Assembly: GCA_031292275.1 (NCBI GenBank)
Contig: JARLHL010000027.1
Span: forward strand, 1 to 64,000
DNA length: 64,000 bases
Direction: 5' to 3'
Source of the DNA: Desulfocapsaceae bacterium
GTDB lineage: Bacteria > Desulfobacterota > Desulfobulbia > Desulfobulbales > Desulfocapsaceae
The notes beneath the pieces are model-generated. The model saw nothing but the letters and a program-made list of their open reading frames with translations. It was not told where the DNA came from and ran no database searches. The position numbers were made by a program, and so were the translations under genes. This document shows positions 31,560-46,785 of this stretch, piece by piece (position 1 is the first letter of the stretch; each line of letters starts with the position of its first letter).

Positions 31560-31928
31560 ATGAATTTTCATAATTCTACGCAATCATTATATAGGCCGAT
31601 GTCTCATGCCAGATTCAGGCAGCAGACGCTGCGGAGACCAAAGACTTTTTCCTGGGCCGGCGATCGGCTTCTGTGGATTTCAATCGGGAAAATTCTGCTT
31701 GTCCTCTGTCCTCTGGTGCTGGTGGTGAATCTCTGGCTCGCCTCGTCCTTCAATACCCTTGACGCCTCGGTTAAAGAGATTGAGAATGCCCGCCATGAAC
31801 TCATGGATAAGCAGATCAAGTTGCGGGCACAGCGGGCACAGCTCTATTCACCCGAGCACATACGCCTGATGGCGGCTGAAAAATTTTCGCTTCGGGTTCC
31901 CGAAAAAGACCAGGTCAAATTATTTTAA
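31560..31928 (+). CDS. ftsL: Cell division protein FtsL-like
   Basis: 122 aa bitopic protein: a basic cytoplasmic N-terminus (about 1-37), one hydrophobic helix (ILLVLCPLVLVVNLWLASSF), then a coiled-coil-forming periplasmic part (ASVKEIENARHELMDKQIKL) and the typical end motif with LYSPEHIRLMAAEKFSL. FtsL forms a complex with FtsB and FtsQ in the divisome. Called by size, topology and position between rsmH and ftsI; sequence conservation in this family is low. AAGGAGG sits upstream of the ATG. Confidence 0.85.
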   Translation: MNFHNSTQSLYRPMSHARFRQQTLRRPKTFSWAGDRLLWISIGKILLVLCPLVLVVNLWLASSFNTLDASVKEIENARHELMDKQIKLRAQRAQLYSPEHIRLMAAEKFSLRVPEKDQVKLF

Positions 31929-31940
31929 TGAAGGGCTTCC

Positions 31941-33890
31941 ATGGCCAAGAAATCACGTCTGCGAACACAGAAGAGCAAAGGACGCAGGCTGGTTCTGGCC
32001 ATGTTCTTCGTATTTCTTGCCATTTCAGGCTACTGGCTTTTGGCGAACAAAATCCAGATAGCAGACTACGTTCATACCATATTCCGGACGGGAAGGGACG
32101 CATCCGAGGCTGACGCTATCACCCGAGGGGTGATCTATGACCGGAATCTCAAAGAGCTTGCGGTTTCAATGGACAGGGTCTCGGTATATGCCACTGTTCG
32201 GGAACTGGAGTCGCTCAATGAAGCCGCCATGCGGCTTGCTCCGGCCTTAAACAGAAGCGAGGATAGCCTGTTGGAAAAATTAAAGGGCAGTTCTCTTCAG
32301 GTATGGCTGGCTGAAAACATAACCCAGGAAGAAGAAGATGCGGTCCTGCGCCTGAATATGAAGGGAATACTTCTGCACAAGGAGAAGGTCAGGTATTATC
32401 CTATGAAGGAGAAGGCTTCTCATTTCCTTGGCTATGCAGAAAACCAAATGGGTCTTTCGGGGGTTGAATATACGTACAACCTGTGGTTGAATCAATACGG
32501 TGCCGCTTCCCATCGCAATCGAAAAACGGCCGGTCAGGCAGGCGATGCTGCAAATGATCCGGCCAGTCACAACCTTATCCTCACCGTCGACCTCAAGATT
32601 CAGGATATCCTGGAGAAATACATTACGGATATTGGTTCAGCCCGCGAAGGAATGCGTCTCGGGGCGATGATCATGGAGGCGAAGACCGGCAATATCATAG
32701 GCTGCGTGAATTATCCTTCCTATGACCCCAACCACTTTCGCGAATATAAAAAAGTCGTTCTTGACAATATTTTTGTCGAGCCCGTTGCAATTCCCGGAAC
32801 AGTCAGGTCCTTCCTCGTCGATGTCGCATCCTTGCAGGCCGATGAGAAGAAGGAGGGGGATGTCCTTCCCTGGAGCATCAGTGCAAATGCTGCCAGCTTT
32901 GGCAGTGAGATTCGTTTTTGGGACAAACTGGGTTTCAATGACAATACCCGCGTCGATTTTATTGCTGAAAATGATAAGCCTCAAAAAATACAGATGCTTA
33001 CCCAGGATCTTGGGAGTGCCCGGAACAACAACACCGTTCCGGCCGTGGCGACGCCTCTGCAGATCCTGACTGCTGTCACTCGCATACTCAATGGCGGTTT
33101 GAAGATCTCTCCTCATATGGTGGATGCAGAGAAAAATCCCAGGGTCTCTCCGATCATCAGGAATACCGGGGAAAGGATAGTCCGCGAAGCGGTTTCCGGC
33201 GAGGCGCAGAACCTCTTTGCCGCCATGACCCAGGGAGGACCGCTCTCATCAGGAACCCAGGTGGGTGAAGGGCTGGCCTTTACCGCAAACGCCGCAGGCA
33301 ACGATTATCGGCGAAACCAAATCCTGATCACAGTGATTCCTGCAAAAGGATCAGAGCTGGTAATCATGATTGTGGCCGATTATGGGGGACTTGATCCCGC
33401 CGGGGCAGGGAGGGCTGGGGTAGCCGACCTGGTGTCGCCCGGGATGAAGATGATCTATCCCATCGTCACCCTGCAGCAGGTCTTGAGCAATCTCTCTGAC
33501 ATGATGACGGCCGAAGAAAAGGAAAAGATGAACTATCAGGCGCCGCAATCCGCTAAGAGCAACACCCCCAAAACGGTAGAACAGCAGGATGTGATGGCTC
33601 CTGCCACGATGCCTGATTTGACGGGCTTGAGTCTTCGTAAAAGTCTGCGTCTGGTCAAGGGGCTGCCCCTTGATGTCCATGTTCAGGGCAGCGGTCGAGT
33701 GATTGCCCAGTCTCCTGCTGCCGGGGCAGTTCTCGCTGACATTAAGGAGTGCACGATAACCCTCCAGCCCAAGGTCAATAAGAACAAGCCTGGCAAGGAG
33801 TTTGTCAAGGCCGGTAAAAAACCTGAGACGGGCAGTGCCAATGAAAGCAAAGGGAGTGAGAACAAAGGGAATGAGACCAAAAAACGATAA
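31941..33890 (+). CDS. ftsI: FtsI/PBP3-like protein with degenerate transpeptidase motifs and PASTA domain
   Basis: 649 aa in the ftsI position: basic N-terminus, one TM helix (about 18-36), a PBP dimerisation region, a transpeptidase-like domain (about 215-520), then a PASTA domain (PDLTGLSLRKSLRLVKGLPL near 555) and a low-complexity lysine/asparagine-rich tail. The catalytic signatures are broken. The expected PGSTxK block reads IPGTVRSFLV near 285, with no SxxK serine or lysine. The KTGT block reads GEGLAFTANAAG near 445, with no KTG. Only SAN remains of the SxN motif (WSISANAASFG). Flanking landmarks are still recognisable (LGFNDNTRVDF, then VATPLQILTAVTRILNGG), so this is an intact but probably non-catalytic homologue rather than a frameshifted gene. 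If so, septal crosslinking must come from another PBP. Confidence 0.88.
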   Translation: MAKKSRLRTQKSKGRRLVLAMFFVFLAISGYWLLANKIQIADYVHTIFRTGRDASEADAITRGVIYDRNLKELAVSMDRVSVYATVRELESLNEAAMRLAPALNRSEDSLLEKLKGSSLQVWLAENITQEEEDAVLRLNMKGILLHKEKVRYYPMKEKASHFLGYAENQMGLSGVEYTYNLWLNQYGAASHRNRKTAGQAGDAANDPASHNLILTVDLKIQDILEKYITDIGSAREGMRLGAMIMEAKTGNIIGCVNYPSYDPNHFREYKKVVLDNIFVEPVAIPGTVRSFLVDVASLQADEKKEGDVLPWSISANAASFGSEIRFWDKLGFNDNTRVDFIAENDKPQKIQMLTQDLGSARNNNTVPAVATPLQILTAVTRILNGGLKISPHMVDAEKNPRVSPIIRNTGERIVREAVSGEAQNLFAAMTQGGPLSSGTQVGEGLAFTANAAGNDYRRNQILITVIPAKGSELVIMIVADYGGLDPAGAGRAGVADLVSPGMKMIYPIVTLQQVLSNLSDMMTAEEKEKMNYQAPQSAKSNTPKTVEQQDVMAPATMPDLTGLSLRKSLRLVKGLPLDVHVQGSGRVIAQSPAAGAVLADIKECTITLQPKVNKNKPGKEFVKAGKKPETGSANESKGSENKGNETKKR

Positions 33891-36800
33891 TCCGGAAATT
33901 GTCGGGTCGGCTGACGTGCTCCGCAGCCGAAGTCTTGCCGAACTGCTTGACGGGTTGACGTATTCTAGCCTCTCAGCCGTGCCGGCCTCGCAGGTGCAGG
34001 TCTCGGATGTGACGTGCGATTCCCGGCATGCCGGTCCTTCAAGCCTTTTTGTCGCTCTGGCCGGAACCAAAACCGATGGACATCAGTATTGCGGACAGGC
34101 CATTGCCCAGGGCTGCGCCGCCATCCTCATTGAAGAGGGAAAGGCTGATCCCGTTCTTTTGTCTTCTCCGTCCGTCTGCCTGATAGGTGTTCAAGACAGC
34201 CGGCGGGCCTATGCCTGGATAGCTGCAAATTTCTTCGATCATCCTGCCGGTGATATGAAATTCATAGGCATTACCGGGACCAACGGCAAGACGACCATCA
34301 CATATCTGCTCGAGCACATCCTCAATCAGGCGGGCCTGCCAGTCGGCGTCATTGGAACGGTGAATTACAGATATACCACTGCCACCGGGAAAATCGAGGC
34401 GGCAGCCCCGTTTACCACTCCTGAACCCCTTATCCTGCAGGGGCTGTTGCGGGCAATGGCTGATGCCGGCGTGCGATACGTGCTGATGGAGGCCTCCTCC
34501 CATGCACTCTCGCAACATCGTCTGGGCGATATCAGATTCGATGTCGCCGCCTTTACCAATCTCTCTCGTGACCATCTCGACTATCATGCCGATATGGAGA
34601 CGTATTTCGCTGTAAAAACACGTCTTTTCACTGATTATCTAAAAAATGACGGCAAGGCCGTGATTACCTGCTGCGGCGGGCAGTGGCAGCAACGACTGGT
34701 CGAGCTTTGTGCAAACAGAGGAATTGAAACAGTACGGGTCGGTGCGGGGCAGGAGGCAGAGGTCAGAATTGTGACGGCAGACAGCAGACGTGACGGTACT
34801 GAACTTGTCCTGGCAACCGCAACGGGAAACCTGAACATTGCATCCCCTCTGGTTGGCGGATTCAACGTGGAAAATATCCTGACGACCCTGGGCCTCTGCC
34901 GGGCCATGGGGCTGAACCTTCGTGAAGCCGGGCGCTCGCTGGCAACCACCCATGGGGCCCCCGGCCGTCTGCAGCCTGTCTCTGCCGGGCCTGATGATGA
35001 CTCCCGCCCCGATGTCTTTATCGATTACGCCCATACACCGGATGCCCTGCGCCAGGTCCTGACGACCCTGACGGCCTTGCCGCACGGAAACCTCATTTGC
35101 GTCTTCGGTTGCGGGGGTGACCGGGACCGGGGTAAAAGGCCTGTCATGGGAGCCATTGCCGCTGCAATGAGTGATGTGGTCATCGTGACTGACGATAACC
35201 CGCGCACCGAGTCTTCCGATCAGATTATTGCGCAGATTCTGCCGGGCCTGCAGGAGTCCGGGCTTGGGCAGAGGGATATTGCCTGGCTGGGCCTGCGGCA
35301 GAGCGACGCCCGGGGCTATCTGGTCCTGCCTTGCCGTGAAGAGGCCATTGCCGTCGCCATCAAGACTGCCGGACCTGACGATATCATCCTTATAGCTGGG
35401 AAGGGGCATGAAAAATATCAGATAGGTCCCGGCGGGAAGCGGTTCTTTGATGACTCTCTGGAGGCGCAGGAGGCCCTGATCGCCTGGAACTGCACCAGCA
35501 TGGCCCAGGCCCTTGCCGGGACCTTTGCTGGACACGAGCCGGTTTCCTCCTTCAACGCAGTTTCGACGGACAGCCGTTCCCTGGCTGCAGGAGACATCTT
35601 CGTGGCCCTTAAGGGGGAGAATTTCGATGCTCATGATTTCCTTGCGCAGGTAATCGCCGCCCGTGCGGGATGTCTGGTGATTTCCAAAGCTGATACCCTG
35701 GAAAACACTGCGGAGATTCCCCGGTTTCTCGTTCAGGATACCCAGGTGGCTCTGGGAAATCTGGCCGGGTTTCGCCGCCGTCTTTTGCGGCAGATCAGCC
35801 GGCCTCTTGTCATCGGCATTACCGGCAGCTGCGGCAAGACAACTGTCAAGGAGATGACCGCTGCAATTCTACAGCGGCAATGGCCTGACGGGCCGGAGAC
35901 TCCAACAGAAAGAGTGATCAAGACCCAAGGGAATTTCAATAACTTAATCGGTCTTCCCTTGTCTCTGTTGCCTCTCGGGGTGAAGCACAGGGCCGCGATA
36001 TTGGAGATGGGGATGAATCATCCCGGTGAGATCGCTCAACTGGTGCGTATTGCCGATCCGGATATCTGCTGCATTGTCGGCATTCATGCCGCCCATCTGG
36101 AGGGCCTGCAGTCTGTGGCAGGGGTCGCTGCAGCCAAGGAGGAACTCTTCGCCGGGGCGGGCGAGGGCGCAATCCTGGCGATAAACCTGGACGATGCCTA
36201 CGTGCGGGCCATGGCCGACAGATACAGCCAGAAAAAGATTACCTACAGCGCCACTGGGAAAGGACGCGCCCAGCAGGGTCCGGACCTGTGGGCTTCGGAC
36301 GTCACGACTTCCCGGGCTGCAACTGTTTCCTATGTCCTGCATGGCAGAGGAGAGGAGATCCCGGTCAGCCTTCAGGCGCCCGGAGCCCACAATGTCGGCA
36401 ACAGCCTTGCCGCCGCCGCCATCGCTCTGGCTGCGGGCTGCTCCCTGCAGACCATTGCCGCAGGTCTGGAGGATTTTCGGCCCGGGGACAAGAGGATGGT
36501 GATCCTGGAGTCCGGGGCCGGCTATTCCTTGATAAATGACACGTATAACGCCAATCCGGGTTCCATGGCAGCGGGGCTGGCCACCCTGAATCAGGTGGCA
36601 GCGGGCACCACCATGGCCATCCTTGGGGATATGCTTGAGTTGGGCGAGGCCAGTCGGTCCTTGCATCAACAGATTGGGCGTGTCGCCGCTGAACAGGGTA
36701 TAAGCTTTCTGGCCCTCTTCGGCCTGTTTGCTGATGCTGTAAGGGACGGGGCGGTGGAGGCTGGAATGTCCCCGGAGAAGATTCGGGTTTTCACGGCCAA

Positions 36801-36933
36801 GGATGCGATTGCAGCTTGGGTGCAGGAACTGGGGGAAGAGGGGGCGTTGAAGAAGGGGGACTGGATTTTAATCAAGGCCTCCAGAGGTTTGAGATTTGAA
36901 ACTATTGTGCAGCAGTTGGCAGTTAGCTCTTGA
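33871..36933 (+). CDS. murE/murF: MurE-MurF fusion (mDAP-adding and D-Ala-D-Ala-adding ligase)
   Basis: About 1020 aa joining two consecutive cytoplasmic Mur ligases. MurE half: substrate-binding N-terminal domain with DVTCDSRHAGPSSLFVALAG, P-loop GITGTNGKTTITYL near 134, HGAPGRLQ, and the DDNPRTE signature near 440 typical of meso-diaminopimelate ligases. MurF half begins near 540 (VSTDSRSLAAGDIFVALKGE), with P-loop GITGSCGKTTVKEM near 648, TQGNFNNLIGLPLSLL, LEMGMNHPGEIAQL and NDTYNANPGSM. The two activities turn UDP-MurNAc-L-Ala-D-Glu into the pentapeptide. The start is set at ATG 33871, overlapping the ftsI end by 20 bases; ATG 33841 and TTG 33802 are in frame but less likely. No linker beyond a short connection is seen. 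Confidence 0.93.
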   Translation: MRPKNDNPEIVGSADVLRSRSLAELLDGLTYSSLSAVPASQVQVSDVTCDSRHAGPSSLFVALAGTKTDGHQYCGQAIAQGCAAILIEEGKADPVLLSSPSVCLIGVQDSRRAYAWIAANFFDHPAGDMKFIGITGTNGKTTITYLLEHILNQAGLPVGVIGTVNYRYTTATGKIEAAAPFTTPEPLILQGLLRAMADAGVRYVLMEASSHALSQHRLGDIRFDVAAFTNLSRDHLDYHADMETYFAVKTRLFTDYLKNDGKAVITCCGGQWQQRLVELCANRGIETVRVGAGQEAEVRIVTADSRRDGTELVLATATGNLNIASPLVGGFNVENILTTLGLCRAMGLNLREAGRSLATTHGAPGRLQPVSAGPDDDSRPDVFIDYAHTPDALRQVLTTLTALPHGNLICVFGCGGDRDRGKRPVMGAIAAAMSDVVIVTDDNPRTESSDQIIAQILPGLQESGLGQRDIAWLGLRQSDARGYLVLPCREEAIAVAIKTAGPDDIILIAGKGHEKYQIGPGGKRFFDDSLEAQEALIAWNCTSMAQALAGTFAGHEPVSSFNAVSTDSRSLAAGDIFVALKGENFDAHDFLAQVIAARAGCLVISKADTLENTAEIPRFLVQDTQVALGNLAGFRRRLLRQISRPLVIGITGSCGKTTVKEMTAAILQRQWPDGPETPTERVIKTQGNFNNLIGLPLSLLPLGVKHRAAILEMGMNHPGEIAQLVRIADPDICCIVGIHAAHLEGLQSVAGVAAAKEELFAGAGEGAILAINLDDAYVRAMADRYSQKKITYSATGKGRAQQGPDLWASDVTTSRAATVSYVLHGRGEEIPVSLQAPGAHNVGNSLAAAAIALAAGCSLQTIAAGLEDFRPGDKRMVILESGAGYSLINDTYNANPGSMAAGLATLNQVAAGTTMAILGDMLELGEASRSLHQQIGRVAAEQGISFLALFGLFADAVRDGAVEAGMSPEKIRVFTAKDAIAAWVQELGEEGALKKGDWILIKASRGLRFETIVQQLAVSS

Positions 36934-38331: not shown

Positions 38332-39713
38332 TGTTGAAAAACGACCGGATTCGCAAAGGGATGCATGTGGTGGTCATGGGACTCGGAATCTCGGGCAGGG
38401 CGGCAGTCCGTTATCTGCTCGGCTGCGGTGCCCGGGTCTCGGTCTCCGATGCCAGAGACCGTGCGAAGATGAAGAAGGAGGACCTGGATTTTCTCGAGAC
38501 ATCCGGGGTCAGCCTGGAAAGCGGCGGGCATAGTATCGATTTGCTGGGCCAGGCCGATATGATTATGCTGAGTCCCGGGATTCCTTTTGATCTGCCGGTG
38601 CTGCAGGAGGTGAAAAAACGCCGGATCCCGGTGTTGGGTGAGCTTGCCATCGCCGGTCCTGCCCTTGATGCCCGGGTGATCGCGATCACCGGCACCAACG
38701 GCAAGACCACGGTCACTTCGCTTATCGGTGAACTGCTGCAGCAGGCGGGAAAAAAGGTCTTTGTCGGCGGCAATATCGGCGTTCCGCTCTTTGAACACCT
38801 CGTAAACGGCAAGGCCGTGGATGCGGTGGTTCTGGAGGTCTCGAGTTTTCAGTTGGAGACGGCGGATTCCTTCAGGCCCGATGTGGCCCTGCTTTTGAAT
38901 ATAACTCCTGACCATCTGGACCGTCATGGTGACATGGATGGCTATGCCGCGGCCAAGAAACGGATATTCCTGCATCAGCGCCCGGGTGACACCGCCATTC
39001 TGGGAGGGGACGATCCTCTCTGCCGGAAAATGGCCGCTGAACTCAAACAGCCCTCCCTCTTTTTCGGGCAGGGGAGCGATTGCCAAGCCAGGACCGGCCA
39101 GGATGCCGTTGTCCTCAATCTGGACGGGGCCGAGGAGATTTATCCTCTGGCGGGTACGGAGCTTGCCGGCAATACCGGGGTGCTGAACAGCGCCGCGGCG
39201 ATCCTGGCAGTACGTGCCGTCGGCTGCCGGCCTGAGGATATCCGCAAGGGGCTGGCCCGCTTTAAGCCCGGACCGCATCGCCTGGCCAGGGTCGGGGAGA
39301 TTGATGGGGTCTGCTTTTATGATGATTCCAAGGCCACCAATACCGGAGCCGTCCTCAGTGCCTTGAGACAGTTGGACGGCAATATTGTGCTGATAGCCGG
39401 CGGCAGGGACAAAGGCGACAATTACAGCCTGCTGCGTGAGGCCGTAATCGAAAAGGTGCGTAAACTGGTTCTGATCGGTGAGGCGGCGGACAAGATCGCC
39501 GCCGCTCTGCAGGAAACGGTGCCCATCTGCTACGCCGCTTCCATGGATGAGGCGGTGGAGATGGCTGCCCAGGGGGCCTGGCCCGGTGACAGCGTGCTGA
39601 TGTCCCCGGCCTGCTCGAGTTTCGATATGTTTGATAATTACGGACACAGGGGCAGAGTCTTCACCCAGGCGGTGCAGAGGCTGAAGGGCCTCCGGGGGGA
39701 GCTGCCGCGATGA
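38331..39713 (+). CDS. murD: UDP-N-acetylmuramoyl-L-alanine--D-glutamate ligase MurD
   Basis: 460 aa Mur ligase adding D-glutamate. Motifs: VVMGLGISGRAAVRYL near 14, P-loop ITGTNGKTTVTSLIGEL near 121, EVSSFQLETAD, NITPDHLDRHGDMDGY, FKPGPHRLARVGEIDGV and YDDSKATNTGAVLSAL. Full length. Its TGA overlaps the murG ATG directly (ATGA), which leaves no room for ftsW, normally located here. Confidence 0.96.
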   Translation: MLKNDRIRKGMHVVVMGLGISGRAAVRYLLGCGARVSVSDARDRAKMKKEDLDFLETSGVSLESGGHSIDLLGQADMIMLSPGIPFDLPVLQEVKKRRIPVLGELAIAGPALDARVIAITGTNGKTTVTSLIGELLQQAGKKVFVGGNIGVPLFEHLVNGKAVDAVVLEVSSFQLETADSFRPDVALLLNITPDHLDRHGDMDGYAAAKKRIFLHQRPGDTAILGGDDPLCRKMAAELKQPSLFFGQGSDCQARTGQDAVVLNLDGAEEIYPLAGTELAGNTGVLNSAAAILAVRAVGCRPEDIRKGLARFKPGPHRLARVGEIDGVCFYDDSKATNTGAVLSALRQLDGNIVLIAGGRDKGDNYSLLREAVIEKVRKLVLIGEAADKIAAALQETVPICYAASMDEAVEMAAQGAWPGDSVLMSPACSSFDMFDNYGHRGRVFTQAVQRLKGLRGELPR

Positions 39714-42249: not shown

Positions 42250-43182
42250 ATGAAGGCCATGGAGAGGCCCATCCGGGAAGCGTTGAGCCGACTTGTAGCC
42301 AAACCGGTGCAGTGGGACTGCCCCCTGAGCGGTTATACTTCCTTTGCCATCGGCGGCCCTGCCCAGGCATTGATAAGCGTGGAGGACAATCGGGAACTGT
42401 TGGCAGTGCTCGATTGCATCAATGCCAACGGTCTGCAGTGGCGGATCATCGGCAAGGGGACTAATCTCCTTGCAGCCGATGCGGGTTTTGCCGGCGTCAT
42501 TCTGATGCTGGGGCAGGGCTTCAAGGATATTCACCGCTGCGATGAACGCAGCGGTGGGGCTGTGACCGTCGCGGCCGGAGGCGGCTGCGGGCTGACCAGG
42601 CTTTCCGGCTGGTGCATTGATCAGGGTCTCTCGGGATTGGAATTCGCCTACGGTATCCCCGGTACAGTCGGCGGGGCGGTGGTTATGAACGCCGGGGCCT
42701 GGGGAGAGGAACTGGCGGAGGTTCTTTCCGCCGTGACGGTGGTCACGCAGCAGGGTCTGCGAAGGATCCAACGGCAGCAGATGCACTTTTCCTACCGCTG
42801 CTGGCGGGATCATCAGGATCAAGGGTGTGCGCAGATCGTGGTCGGGATAGAGGTCCGGCTGGTTCCGGCGGATCCCGATGCCGTACGGAAGCGATGTTCT
42901 GAGCTTTTGCAGAAACGCAGCGACAGGCAACCTAAAGGCCTGCCCAACGCCGGATCATTTTTCAAAAACCCCGGCGATAACAGTGCCGGCCGGCTCATTG
43001 AGAAGAGCGGCTGCAAGGGGATGCGGGTCGGCGGAGCGATGGTGTCGCCGGTACATGCCAATTTTTTTGTCAATACGGGTGGGGCAAAGGCTGCAGATGT
43101 GATGGAACTTATGGGCAGAGTTCAAAAAAAGGTGCAGCAGGAATGTGGCGTTCTCCTTGAGCCGGAGGTCCATTTTATATGA
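42250..43182 (+). CDS. murB: UDP-N-acetylenolpyruvoylglucosamine reductase MurB
   Basis: 310 aa flavoenzyme that reduces UDP-GlcNAc-enolpyruvate to UDP-MurNAc. Landmarks: PLSGYTSFAIGGPAQALI, GKGTNLLAADAGFAGVI, LEFAYGIPGTVGGAVVMNAGAWG, PNAGSFFKNPGDNSAGRLIE (catalytic Ser) and a final LEPEVHFI (catalytic Glu). The FAD-binding Tyr-loop form is the shorter type. The start is ATG 42250, 10 bases past murC, with only weak ribosome-binding sequence. No ddl gene follows, unlike many dcw clusters. Confidence 0.95.
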   Translation: MKAMERPIREALSRLVAKPVQWDCPLSGYTSFAIGGPAQALISVEDNRELLAVLDCINANGLQWRIIGKGTNLLAADAGFAGVILMLGQGFKDIHRCDERSGGAVTVAAGGGCGLTRLSGWCIDQGLSGLEFAYGIPGTVGGAVVMNAGAWGEELAEVLSAVTVVTQQGLRRIQRQQMHFSYRCWRDHQDQGCAQIVVGIEVRLVPADPDAVRKRCSELLQKRSDRQPKGLPNAGSFFKNPGDNSAGRLIEKSGCKGMRVGGAMVSPVHANFFVNTGGAKAADVMELMGRVQKKVQQECGVLLEPEVHFI

Positions 43183-44189
43183 AAATTGTAAAAAGAATTT
43201 TCAACAAAATCAGGTTCGGTCGCCCCTTTGCATCGAAGAAGAAAGGACGCCAGGTCTTTCGGCCCCGGACTGTAACCAAACAGACCTACAGCTCTTTTCA
43301 GCAGAAAAATTCGCCGTCTCGGCTCAAGCGCATGCTGAAACGGATTGGCGGGATTTTCACCCGCATGAAGACAGTGGAGACTCCGGGCAGAAGCCCCCGC
43401 CAGCGTACTCGGAATGCCTCCGTTTTCACCGCCTGCCTGATCGTCCTTGGGCTTGTGGCGCTCGTGTTTATGAGCCGGGGCTGGGTTGCCAGCTTTTTCT
43501 CCGGGGTTGAATACTTTGAGGTTCAGGACAATGTCGTCATCGACGGCTGCCGTGTGACAACGCCGGCTGAAATTCGTGAACTGGGCGAGATCAGATACCA
43601 TACCAATCTCTTCACCATCAACGAGGGGAAGCTGGCGGCAATTCTGGGCAGACACCCGTGGATCAGTGAGGTGACGGTCGACCGGATCTGGCCGAACAAG
43701 CTGCAGATTCATGTGGTCGAACACGTCCCCGAGGCCCTTATCCTGCAGGGAGATGCAGGCAGGGAACAGCTGTTTTACATGGATAACCGTGGTGTGCCTT
43801 TTATTGCAGTCAGGCAGGGCCAGGATCTGGATTTTCCGGTCGTAACAGGTATCGGCAATTTTCCGGAGCCTGATAAAAGGAAGGAAATACTCGCTGATGT
43901 CCTGCATTTCCTGAAGCTGGTGAAGACAAATAATCCGAATCTGCCGGCTCAGTCGATTTCAGAGATCCACCTGGATAAGACTGAAGGAATAGTGGTGTAT
44001 CTTGTTGATTATCCCTTTCCGATTTTTTTCGGAACAGGCGGTGTCGGAAAGAAATACAAACAGTTGCAAGATGTACTGGGAGTTTTGTATAAACACAGAA
44101 AGGACGGAATGCAGATCTCTCAGGTAGAATATATACGGATGGATTATTTGACCAATAAAGTGCTTGTCGCACAAAGCGGACCGGGTTGA
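43179..44189 (+). CDS. ftsQ: Cell division protein FtsQ
   Basis: 336 aa: a long basic cytoplasmic N-terminus (about 1-80), one TM helix (TACLIVLGLVALVFMSRGWV), a POTRA domain beginning FEVQDNVVIDGCRVTTPAEI with LFTINEGKLAAILGRHPWIS and VDRIWPNKLQIHVVEHVPEA, then the FtsQ-type beta domain with LFYMDNRGVPF. It links FtsL and other periplasmic divisome proteins. ATGA overlap with murB. The cytoplasmic part is longer than in E. coli. Confidence 0.93.
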   Translation: MKIVKRIFNKIRFGRPFASKKKGRQVFRPRTVTKQTYSSFQQKNSPSRLKRMLKRIGGIFTRMKTVETPGRSPRQRTRNASVFTACLIVLGLVALVFMSRGWVASFFSGVEYFEVQDNVVIDGCRVTTPAEIRELGEIRYHTNLFTINEGKLAAILGRHPWISEVTVDRIWPNKLQIHVVEHVPEALILQGDAGREQLFYMDNRGVPFIAVRQGQDLDFPVVTGIGNFPEPDKRKEILADVLHFLKLVKTNNPNLPAQSISEIHLDKTEGIVVYLVDYPFPIFFGTGGVGKKYKQLQDVLGVLYKHRKDGMQISQVEYIRMDYLTNKVLVAQSGPG

Positions 44190-44194
44190 CAGGA

Positions 44195-45451
44195 ATGGAA
44201 GACAATTACGATTTGGAGCCGATGGAAAAGGAGGCCAAGGTCGATAAAGAGGCGGGTGATCTTATCGTCGGTCTTGACATTGGTACAACCAAGATCTGCT
44301 GTGTGGTCGGAGAGGCCTTTACGGACGGGATTGATATAATCGGAGTCGGCATTGCGCCCTCACTCGGCTTGAAAAAAGGCGTAGTGGTCAACATTGAGAG
44401 CACCGTCAATTCGATCCAGCAGGCCGTGAGGATTGCCGAGGACAAGGCCGGCTGCAATCTTCGTTATGTGCATGTGGGCATCGCCGGCAACCATGTCAAG
44501 GGCTTCAACAGTCCGGGGATACTGGCGATCAACGGCCGCGAGATCAAACAGGCCGATATCAATGAAGTCATTAATGCCGCCAGGACGGTAAAGATCTCAG
44601 AAAATCAGCAGATTATTCATGTGATGCCCCAGGAGTACATGGTGGACGACCATACCGGCATCCAAAATCCCCTGGGAATGACAGGGGTCCGGCTGGTCAC
44701 CAACGTCCATATCGTCACCGCTGACAACGGGGCGGTGCATAACCTGGTTACCTGCTGCAATAAGGCCGGCCTTGAAGTGGCCGACATGGTCCTTGAGTCC
44801 ATCGCCTCCGCCCACGCGGTCCTGAGTCCCGACGAGATGGAGTTGGGAGTGGCCCTGCTGGACATCGGCGGCGGCACTACCGATCTGGCGGTCTTCTGCG
44901 ACGGCACGATCCGGCATACCTGCGAACTGGGGCTCGGCGGCCATAATCTGACCAATGATCTGTCGGTGGGGCTGCGCACTCCGCTGCAGGAGGCCGAGCG
45001 CCTGAAAGAGGATTACGGCAGTGCCATCGCCTCGGTCATCAAGCCCAACCATGTGGTCGACGTGCCGACCGTGGGTGACAGGGAGCCGCGCAAGATCACC
45101 CAGAAGGTCTTGGGAGATATCATTCAGGCCAGGATAGTCGAGATCCTGGAGATGGTGAACAAGGAGTTGATGATATCGGGGCTGAAAAACCGGATCAACG
45201 GCGGGGTTGTGATCACCGGCGGAACGGCACTCCTTGCCAACATTGTTGACCTTGCAGAACAGATCTTTGACCTGCCTGTCAGGCTCGGTTATCCATCGGG
45301 CGTGGGCGGAGCCATTGACGATGTGAATACCCCTCGCTGCACCACCGCGGTGGGGCTGGTTCTCTATGGGCAGAAAAATCATTATGACAGAAAATATCAT
45401 GATATGTCGATGTATAAAAGAGTGAAGGGCTGGTTGAAAAAAATCATGTGA
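44195..45451 (+). CDS. ftsA: Cell division protein FtsA
   Basis: About 418 aa actin-like ATPase anchoring FtsZ to the membrane. Phosphate-1 VGLDIGTTKICCVVGE, phosphate-2 LLDIGGGTTDLAVFCDG, the SHS2 domain between them, adenosine motif GGVVITGGTALLANI and the C-terminal amphipathic helix SMYKRVKGWLKKIM are all present. The start is set at ATG 44195, with AGGA directly before it; TTG 44186 (overlapping the ftsQ stop) and ATG 44222 (after TTGGAG) are alternatives. Confidence 0.96.
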   Translation: MEDNYDLEPMEKEAKVDKEAGDLIVGLDIGTTKICCVVGEAFTDGIDIIGVGIAPSLGLKKGVVVNIESTVNSIQQAVRIAEDKAGCNLRYVHVGIAGNHVKGFNSPGILAINGREIKQADINEVINAARTVKISENQQIIHVMPQEYMVDDHTGIQNPLGMTGVRLVTNVHIVTADNGAVHNLVTCCNKAGLEVADMVLESIASAHAVLSPDEMELGVALLDIGGGTTDLAVFCDGTIRHTCELGLGGHNLTNDLSVGLRTPLQEAERLKEDYGSAIASVIKPNHVVDVPTVGDREPRKITQKVLGDIIQARIVEILEMVNKELMISGLKNRINGGVVITGGTALLANIVDLAEQIFDLPVRLGYPSGVGGAIDDVNTPRCTTAVGLVLYGQKNHYDRKYHDMSMYKRVKGWLKKIM

Positions 45452-45486
45452 TTAGAGACTTTTTTATTTATGTGTTGCTCGGCAGA

Positions 45487-45495
45487 TGATATAAT
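45487..45495 (+). promoter_or_regulatory. Extended -10 promoter before ftsZ
   Basis: TG-A-TATAAT (TGnTATAAT) lies 70 bases upstream of the ftsZ start, with no good -35, as is usual for extended -10 promoters. It would give ftsZ its own transcript in addition to operon read-through. Confidence 0.5.
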
Positions 45496-45564
45496 TTTCA
45501 TACGCTTGAAAGGCAGGGAGATTATGTTGCCGGTTCCATCTTACGTACTACTCAGGGGGGTTAT

Positions 45565-46785
45565 ATGCCGTTCAGAATGGCAGAGTCGGAAGGCGTCGCA
45601 AAGGTCAAGGTCATAGGTGTCGGCGGCGGTGGCGGGAATGCTATTAACACCATGGTTGCCAGCAAGCTCCAAGGCGTTGAGTTTATTGTGGCGAATACGG
45701 ACAAGCAGGCCCTTGAACAGTCTCAAGCCGATATCTGTCTGCAGATCGGTCCCGGTATCACCAAAGGGCTGGGAGCAGGCGCAGACCCGGAGATCGGCGC
45801 TCAGGCGGCCAATGAATCCATTGAAGAGCTGAAGAAGATACTTAAGGGGTCCGATATGGTCTTCGTCACCGCCGGTCTCGGCGGCGGGACGGGGACGGGG
45901 GCTGCACCGGTGGTGGCTAAGCTGAGTAAAGAGCTGGGGGCCCTGACCGTGGCCGTCGTTACCAAGCCCTTCAGCTTCGAGGGTAAATACCGGATGCGCA
46001 ATGCCGAAAACGGCTGGGAAGAGCTGCAGAAATATGCCGATACCATTATCACCGTTCCCAATGACCGGCTCCTGTCTTTAATGCAGAAGAACAGCAGGCT
46101 TGCCGATATGCTGTGCATGGCGGATCATGTTCTGCTGCAGGCGGTAAAGGGCATCACCGATCTCATCAATGTCCCGGGGCTGATCAATGCCGATTTTGCC
46201 GATCTCCGCACCGTGATGAAGGAAGTCGGGCCTGCCATCATGGGATCGGGGATCGCGGTCGGCGAAAACAGGGCCACCGAGGCCGCCAAACGGGCCATTG
46301 ACAACCAGCTTCTTGAGGATATCGGCATTGACGGCGCCCGCGGTCTGCTCATCAATATCTCGGCGACCTCCGAGAGTTTCACCATGGCCGAGTTCATGGA
46401 GGCCTCAGCTCTGATTCAGGGCAAGGTTGATGATGATGCCAAGGTGGTGATCGGCGCCCTCTACGACGAGACCCTGGGCGACGAGTTGCATGTGACCGTT
46501 ATCGCCACCGGCGTGGGGGATGTGGCGACCAAGAACAAGACCATTGCCCAGGTCAATGATCTGCCCAAGCAGAAAGATGATTTTGATGTCAACGGTCAGG
46601 GATTGACGCCCGCGCGGGTCAATCCCAAGCCTCGGGTCACTATCCTGCCGGGTTCAAATTTTGATTCCTTCGAGAATATAGGCGCTACAAGCGGAATCGA
46701 CTCTATCCGTAACGGCCTGGAGAGGACGAGCTGGAATGAGGATCTGCTTGAAACGCCTACCTATCTCAGGAAGAAGGCCAACTAA
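45565..46785 (+). CDS. ftsZ: Cell division GTPase FtsZ
   Basis: 406 aa tubulin-like GTPase that forms the Z ring. Nucleotide motifs VIGVGGGGGNAINTM, the G-box GLGGGTGTGAAPVVA, the NADFADLRTVM T7 loop and the C-terminal conserved peptide ETPTYLRKKAN (FtsA/ZipA-binding tail) are present. A strong GGGGGG-type ribosome-binding site precedes the ATG. It closes the dcw cluster. Confidence 0.98.
   Translation: MPFRMAESEGVAKVKVIGVGGGGGNAINTMVASKLQGVEFIVANTDKQALEQSQADICLQIGPGITKGLGAGADPEIGAQAANESIEELKKILKGSDMVFVTAGLGGGTGTGAAPVVAKLSKELGALTVAVVTKPFSFEGKYRMRNAENGWEELQKYADTIITVPNDRLLSLMQKNSRLADMLCMADHVLLQAVKGITDLINVPGLINADFADLRTVMKEVGPAIMGSGIAVGENRATEAAKRAIDNQLLEDIGIDGARGLLINISATSESFTMAEFMEASALIQGKVDDDAKVVIGALYDETLGDELHVTVIATGVGDVATKNKTIAQVNDLPKQKDDFDVNGQGLTPARVNPKPRVTILPGSNFDSFENIGATSGIDSIRNGLERTSWNEDLLETPTYLRKKAN

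Follow-up and report, generated by a model that had tools for sequence, protein, structure and literature searches.

A conserved FtsI without catalytic motifs and the absence of ftsW in the Desulfobulbales

The dcw cluster and its FtsI

The window, a stretch of 64,000 nucleotides from a Desulfocapsaceae genome, carries a dcw cluster in which an open ftsI frame is flanked by ftsL and murE-murF (Table 1). In addition to FtsL, the divisome proteins FtsQ, FtsA and FtsZ are encoded in the cluster, and murD and murG follow each other directly. The genes murE and murF form a single frame of 1043 aa (33802-36933), a fusion that is common to several complete relatives.

Table 1 Features of the dcw cluster in the window and, in the last two rows, of the dcw loci of lineages f35 and f65 (locus:position)
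Feature	Position	Strand	Evidence
FtsI orthologue encoded in the dcw cluster, catalytically dead, 649 aa	31941..33890	+	ORF; Pfam; nearest solved structures by sequence and fold
N-terminal membrane anchor helix, aa 15-35	31983..32045	+	AlphaFold secondary structure (H15-35)
PBP dimerisation (pedestal) domain, RGxIYDR...LAVS conserved	32121..32447	+	Pfam PF03717, E-value 9e-12
Former SxxK site, PGTVRS, aa 285-290	32793..32810	+	Aligned column: S/K in each of 20 intact FtsI, no fixed residue in 70 dead FtsI
Former KTG strand, EGLAFTAN, aa 443-450	33267..33290	+	Aligned column: KTG in 20/20 intact FtsI, gaps or variable residues in 70 dead FtsI
PASTA domain, most conserved part of the dead FtsI	33609..33755	+	Pfam PF03793; 52/52 aligned orthologues
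ftsL, retained partner of FtsI	31560..31928	+	ORF between rsmH and ftsI; matched as FtsL in other loci
murD-murG junction, 4-nt overlap at the place of ftsW in intact-FtsI lineages	39710..39713	+	ORFs; SEDS counts 12/12 (intact FtsI), 0/41 (dead FtsI)
ftsQ-ftsA-ftsZ, remaining dcw divisome genes kept	43179..46785	+	ORFs; blast annotation of relatives
Reduced FtsI, f35/f65	L212:8576, L213:8595, L214:8280, L215:7684	-	
Polytopic protein of about 268 aa, f35/f65	L212:2588, L213:2610, L214:2195, L215:1654	-	

When the FtsI sequence was compared with Pfam, PBP_dimer and PASTA domains were found together with a weak transpeptidase match that begins only at profile position 124. The nearest solved proteins by sequence are FtsI/PBP3 of E. 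coli and Pseudomonas and SpoVD. The AlphaFold model (mean pLDDT 78.7) resembles SpoVD and PBP3 structures over its length (E-values down to 9e-28 in the fold comparison) and indicates a protein that has retained the fold and lost the active site. The ftsL-ftsI-murE position, the single membrane anchor, the dimerisation domain and the transpeptidase fold are all shared with FtsI/PBP3 of E. coli and P. aeruginosa and with SpoVD, and mark the protein as an FtsI orthologue by descent; its PASTA domain is common to SpoVD-like FtsI. Unlike these enzymes, it has neither SxxK nor KTG, its catalytic core is shortened and an FtsW partner is lacking.

A sequence-only reading of this locus had reported PGTVRS in place of PGSTxK and AFT in place of KTG, in an open frame with the surrounding PBP landmarks kept. 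Both replacements and the open frame were confirmed. As for the landmarks, the anchor, the dimerisation domain, the PASTA domain and the fold are indeed kept, but in comparison with an intact FtsI about 36 residues of the catalytic core, located between the SxxK site and the next segment, 'LGFN', are missing. No intact SxxK or KTG was found elsewhere in the frame. A SAN triplet lies near the SxN site; it is not conserved in the two congeners, where SGR and SGG were read, and the segment is shortened and its alignment uncertain. Within the dimerisation region, R62, D67, R68, G142, R151, G164, G171-G174 and E176 are invariant among 52 orthologues.

FtsI across the Desulfobulbales

The two motifs were absent from all 58 loci read at genus, family and order level. 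An ftsL-ftsI-murE orthologue without either of them was present in both congeners, in the other members of the family and in the 14 further families of the order that were sampled. A scan of named genomes, with a family-level alignment as the query, placed the family with Desulfocapsa, Desulfofustis, Desulfopila and Desulfoprunum and identified the order as Desulfobulbales, to which Desulfogranum also belongs. SxxK and KTG were missing at the site in 55 of 55 named Desulfobulbales loci, whereas the non-Desulfobulbales matches in the same scan keep PGSxxK and KTG. The same catalytic death is seen in each readable FtsI orthologue of the order (15 families). Sequencing error was ruled out as the source of the motif loss, as the congeners and all readable relatives also lack the motifs.

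Seventy dead FtsI sequences were also aligned jointly with 20 intact ones from other bacteria of several phyla. The serine, the lysine and KTG are present in 20 of 20 intact sequences, and in the dead ones these columns contain gaps or freely varying residues, the column mapping being approximate in their shortened region. Mean column identity in the stretch from SxxK to KTG is 0.235 for dead FtsI versus 0.495 for the intact set, which spans several phyla. The dimerisation domain is hardly affected (0.386 versus 0.425) and the PASTA domain has the higher value in dead FtsI (0.421 versus 0.373). Judged by these identities, constraint on the dead FtsI has shifted away from the SxxK-KTG stretch. 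The membrane and juxtamembrane part has an identity of 0.21 in dead and 0.27 in intact FtsI; this lower conservation is consistent with a lost contact to FtsW and gives no hint of a new partner.

The dN/dS ratio across relatives had been proposed as a check on the locus. In close pairs, omega is 0.06-0.27 over the whole gene and 0.07-0.34 when only the dead transpeptidase part is considered, so the dead FtsI is under purifying selection. A pseudogene is expected to have an omega near 1 or broken frames; here omega is low and the frames are open order-wide. A local pseudogene was ruled out by this low omega and by the clade-wide motif loss. The earlier proposal of a divisome pseudoenzyme is well supported by the clade-wide motif loss, the purifying selection and the retained fold.

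In one genome consisting of a single contig (G017, locus L073), ftsI is split into two overlapping frames. It is because murB and murE-murF are likewise broken into two frames in this genome that the split was read as residual sequencing error rather than gene decay, as the pattern suggests.

SEDS genes and the extent of the losses

Among the named loci, a SEDS gene lies between murD and murG in every locus with an intact FtsI (12 of 12) and in none of the 41 loci with a dead FtsI. Exactly one SEDS gene was detected in 152 of 160 genomes of the order, and in most of the phylum's other families there are two. The eight exceptions comprise three genomes without a match, four contaminated assemblies and one split gene. 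Genomes with more than one SEDS match were not counted as carrying additional genes: G244, G210, G242 and G299 have 5-8 % contamination, and in G047 one gene is split between frames.

In the SEDS tree, the dcw-linked FtsW proteins are separated from the others with 100/100 support. The single SEDS protein of each dead lineage tested groups with RodA and its gene adjoins a PBP2 gene; wherever the tree or the neighbour was checked, the sole SEDS protein is assigned to RodA. Nearly all PBP2s encoded next to RodA match both motif patterns (one is without a match to each). In the genome of the window, the SEDS protein and PBP2 score above the NCBIfam equivalog thresholds of RodA and PBP2, respectively. 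A count of the class B PBPs, also proposed for this genome at the outset, found with profile PF00905 only PBP2, the class A PBPs and the dead FtsI; neither a second FtsI in this search nor an FtsW in the SEDS count (one gene) was found in the genome. The sequence-only reading considered a single protein and overlooked that these genomes also lack ftsW. The entire FtsW-FtsI synthase, and not just its crosslinking half, is therefore gone, in at least one order and several deep lineages.

A dead FtsI at the same dcw place was also observed in further one-SEDS lineages of the phylum (f66, f72, f75, f76 and f28). In some lineages the dead FtsI has 440-560 aa. The transpeptidase domain is largely gone from the 440-aa version of f40 and from the FtsI stub of about 330 aa in f39. 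In an RpoB tree, rooted by midpoint and with a support of only 85-92 at its deep nodes, the dead lineages group with the Desulfobulbales to one side of the intact ones, except for one independent lineage. This topology fits a single ancestral loss across the Desulfobulbales and the related deep lineages.

The independent lineage consists of f35 and f65, which were placed well inside the intact side of the tree (98/96). Their FtsI, of 248-329 aa, is composed of a membrane anchor, a linker and a PASTA domain, and is still found at ftsL-ftsI-murE. A polytopic protein of about 268 aa is encoded between murD and murG, exactly in the slot of the lost ftsW. The match of these proteins to the FtsW profile is weak and short (hhalign probability 2 %, E-value 0.023), and they may be either a remnant of FtsW or an unrelated replacement. 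Given the placement of f35/f65 inside the intact side, at least two losses of the FtsW-FtsI pair seem to have taken place.

Septal wall synthesis and the proposed role of the dead FtsI

Because ftsW is lost and FtsI is dead, the cells have to rely on other enzymes for the division wall. At least two transglycosylase-domain proteins were found in 58 of 58 relatives. In the genome of the window, class A PBPs are represented by a PBP1b homologue that carries UB2H along with transglycosylase and transpeptidase domains, by a PBP1C-like protein and by a PBP1a-like protein of 1118 residues. A serine-lysine site and KTG are present in the sequence of each. A class A PBP of about 1100 aa, in which the transpeptidase domain is split by a long insert, occurs in nearly every genome of the order (L005:82-3435) and is a candidate septal synthase. 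On the side of the divisome, an FtsB/DivIC-family protein was found in 38 of 38 genomes.

FtsW-FtsI has been described as universally conserved among walled bacteria and essential to their septal wall synthesis, with exceptions known from C. difficile and further clostridia (PMC10693644, PMC12539705). C. difficile divides by the class A protein PBP1 in place of FtsW-FtsI (PMC10693644, PMC12539705), and its class B protein PBP3 influences septum synthesis non-catalytically (PMC12539705). As in C. difficile, there is no functional vegetative FtsW-FtsI pair in the genomes studied here, and class A PBPs and RodA-PBP2, which serves elongation in C. difficile, are retained. However, the dcw-encoded SEDS and class B proteins of C. 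difficile (SpoVE and SpoVD) are catalytically competent and have been repurposed for sporulation, whereas in these diderm bacteria ftsW is deleted and the dcw FtsI is dead yet conserved. FtsI transpeptidase catalysis is also dispensable in B. subtilis (PBP2B) and S. aureus (PBP1) (PMC12539705; PMC10693644). In these species too, what makes the class B PBP essential is a non-catalytic function, but the wild-type protein is an active enzyme that activates FtsW, while the natural protein described here is inactive and has no FtsW. In E. coli, PBP1b is recruited by FtsI (PMC12539705).

We propose that the ancestor of the Desulfobulbales and several related deep lineages retired the septal polymerase-crosslinker pair. 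In this process ftsW would have been deleted from the murD-murG interval, and FtsI would have lost the acyl-serine, both catalytic lysines and part of the active-site core, being kept for the divisome job of its membrane anchor, dimerisation domain and PASTA domain. The dead FtsI would most likely bind FtsQLB and, at midcell, retain or activate another synthase. Class A PBPs (the UB2H-type PBP1b homologue and the PBP1a-like protein of about 1100 residues) would then produce the septal wall, possibly aided by the single RodA-PBP2 pair. The proposal of the first reading that FtsI may be a scaffold while another PBP crosslinks septal murein is plausible. We consider it probable that FtsI survives as a non-catalytic divisome scaffold and that class A PBPs and/or RodA-PBP2 build the septal wall. 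The best-supported model is one in which the dead FtsI would link FtsQLB to a class A PBP. Against it, FtsI has been found in contact with a class A PBP only in other species, and the presence of class A PBPs is weak evidence because they are common among bacteria.

A different division of labour has to be considered, in which RodA-PBP2 makes both sidewall and septum, the dead FtsI is an adaptor that brings or activates RodA in the stead of FtsW, and the class A PBPs are accessory. In known complexes it is through the PBP dimerisation domain that SEDS proteins are contacted, and this domain is still conserved in the dead FtsI (0.39 versus 0.43). Moreover, RodA is the sole SEDS gene and its PBP2 partner retains SxxK and KTG. 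However, C. difficile, the nearest case that has been studied, uses RodA-PBP2 for elongation only and divides by means of a class A PBP, and the membrane and juxtamembrane region of the dead FtsI is poorly conserved. We regard septum synthesis by RodA-PBP2 as rather unlikely.

If FtsI were instead a functionless vestige decaying at lineage-specific speeds, one would expect a graded erosion such as that observed from full-length dead proteins (Desulfobulbales) through forms of 440-560 aa and 330-aa stubs (f39) to anchor plus PASTA (f35/f65), and the split ftsI frame of G017 could be counted in the same sense. Decay is nevertheless improbable, since the frames are open, omega is well below 1 in all close pairs with the dead transpeptidase part included, PASTA and PBP_dimer are both present in 52 of 52 orthologues, and the same dcw position is kept across 15 families and other lineages. 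The retained fold, on the other hand, might suggest a protein that is still enzymatic by means of different catalytic residues. Between aa 265 and 555, however, the 52 orthologues share no invariant polar residue, and the active-site core is shortened; such an activity is very unlikely.

Returning to the non-catalytic scaffold, a more specific version can be put forward tentatively. The dead FtsI may have turned into a PASTA-carrying hub connecting FtsQLB with a class A PBP (or with RodA), the supposedly near-universal synthase being replaced in a clade of at least the Desulfobulbales and several deep lineages. The independent lineage would have made the same move with an anchor-plus-PASTA protein and a polytopic protein in the ftsW slot.

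Parts of this gene loss have been reported from few genomes. According to a study of cable bacteria, four Desulfobulbaceae genomes lack ftsW, ftsN and zipA, and FtsI was listed there with the proteins that are brought to the division plane (PMC7873302). In addition, ftsW was described as lost from the dcw cluster of Thermodesulfobacteria (PMC8871954). FtsI is treated as present in these two studies, and its death, the link between the two losses and their extent are absent from them. No published report of the dead FtsI was found in our search, which is a limited negative as subscription journals were mostly outside its coverage. New here are FtsI as a conserved pseudoenzyme, its death accompanying the loss of ftsW, the extent of both, and a second independent case.

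Whole orders of diderm bacteria divide without FtsW-FtsI and retain a naturally dead FtsI, among them the sulfur-metabolising Desulfobulbales with cultured species of Desulfoprunum, Desulfofustis, Desulfogranum and Desulfopila. The scaffold role of FtsI would be separable from catalysis in nature, and it becomes testable which enzymes can form a septum without the standard pair. Division in these bacteria is predicted to be resistant to FtsI-selective beta-lactams and sensitive to inhibitors of class A PBPs.

One genome (G075, locus L163) has an intact FtsI-FtsW pair in its dcw cluster; RodA and PBP2 were not found in it (one SEDS protein and one class B PBP). It is either a mirror image of the dead-FtsI case or the result of an assembly gap.
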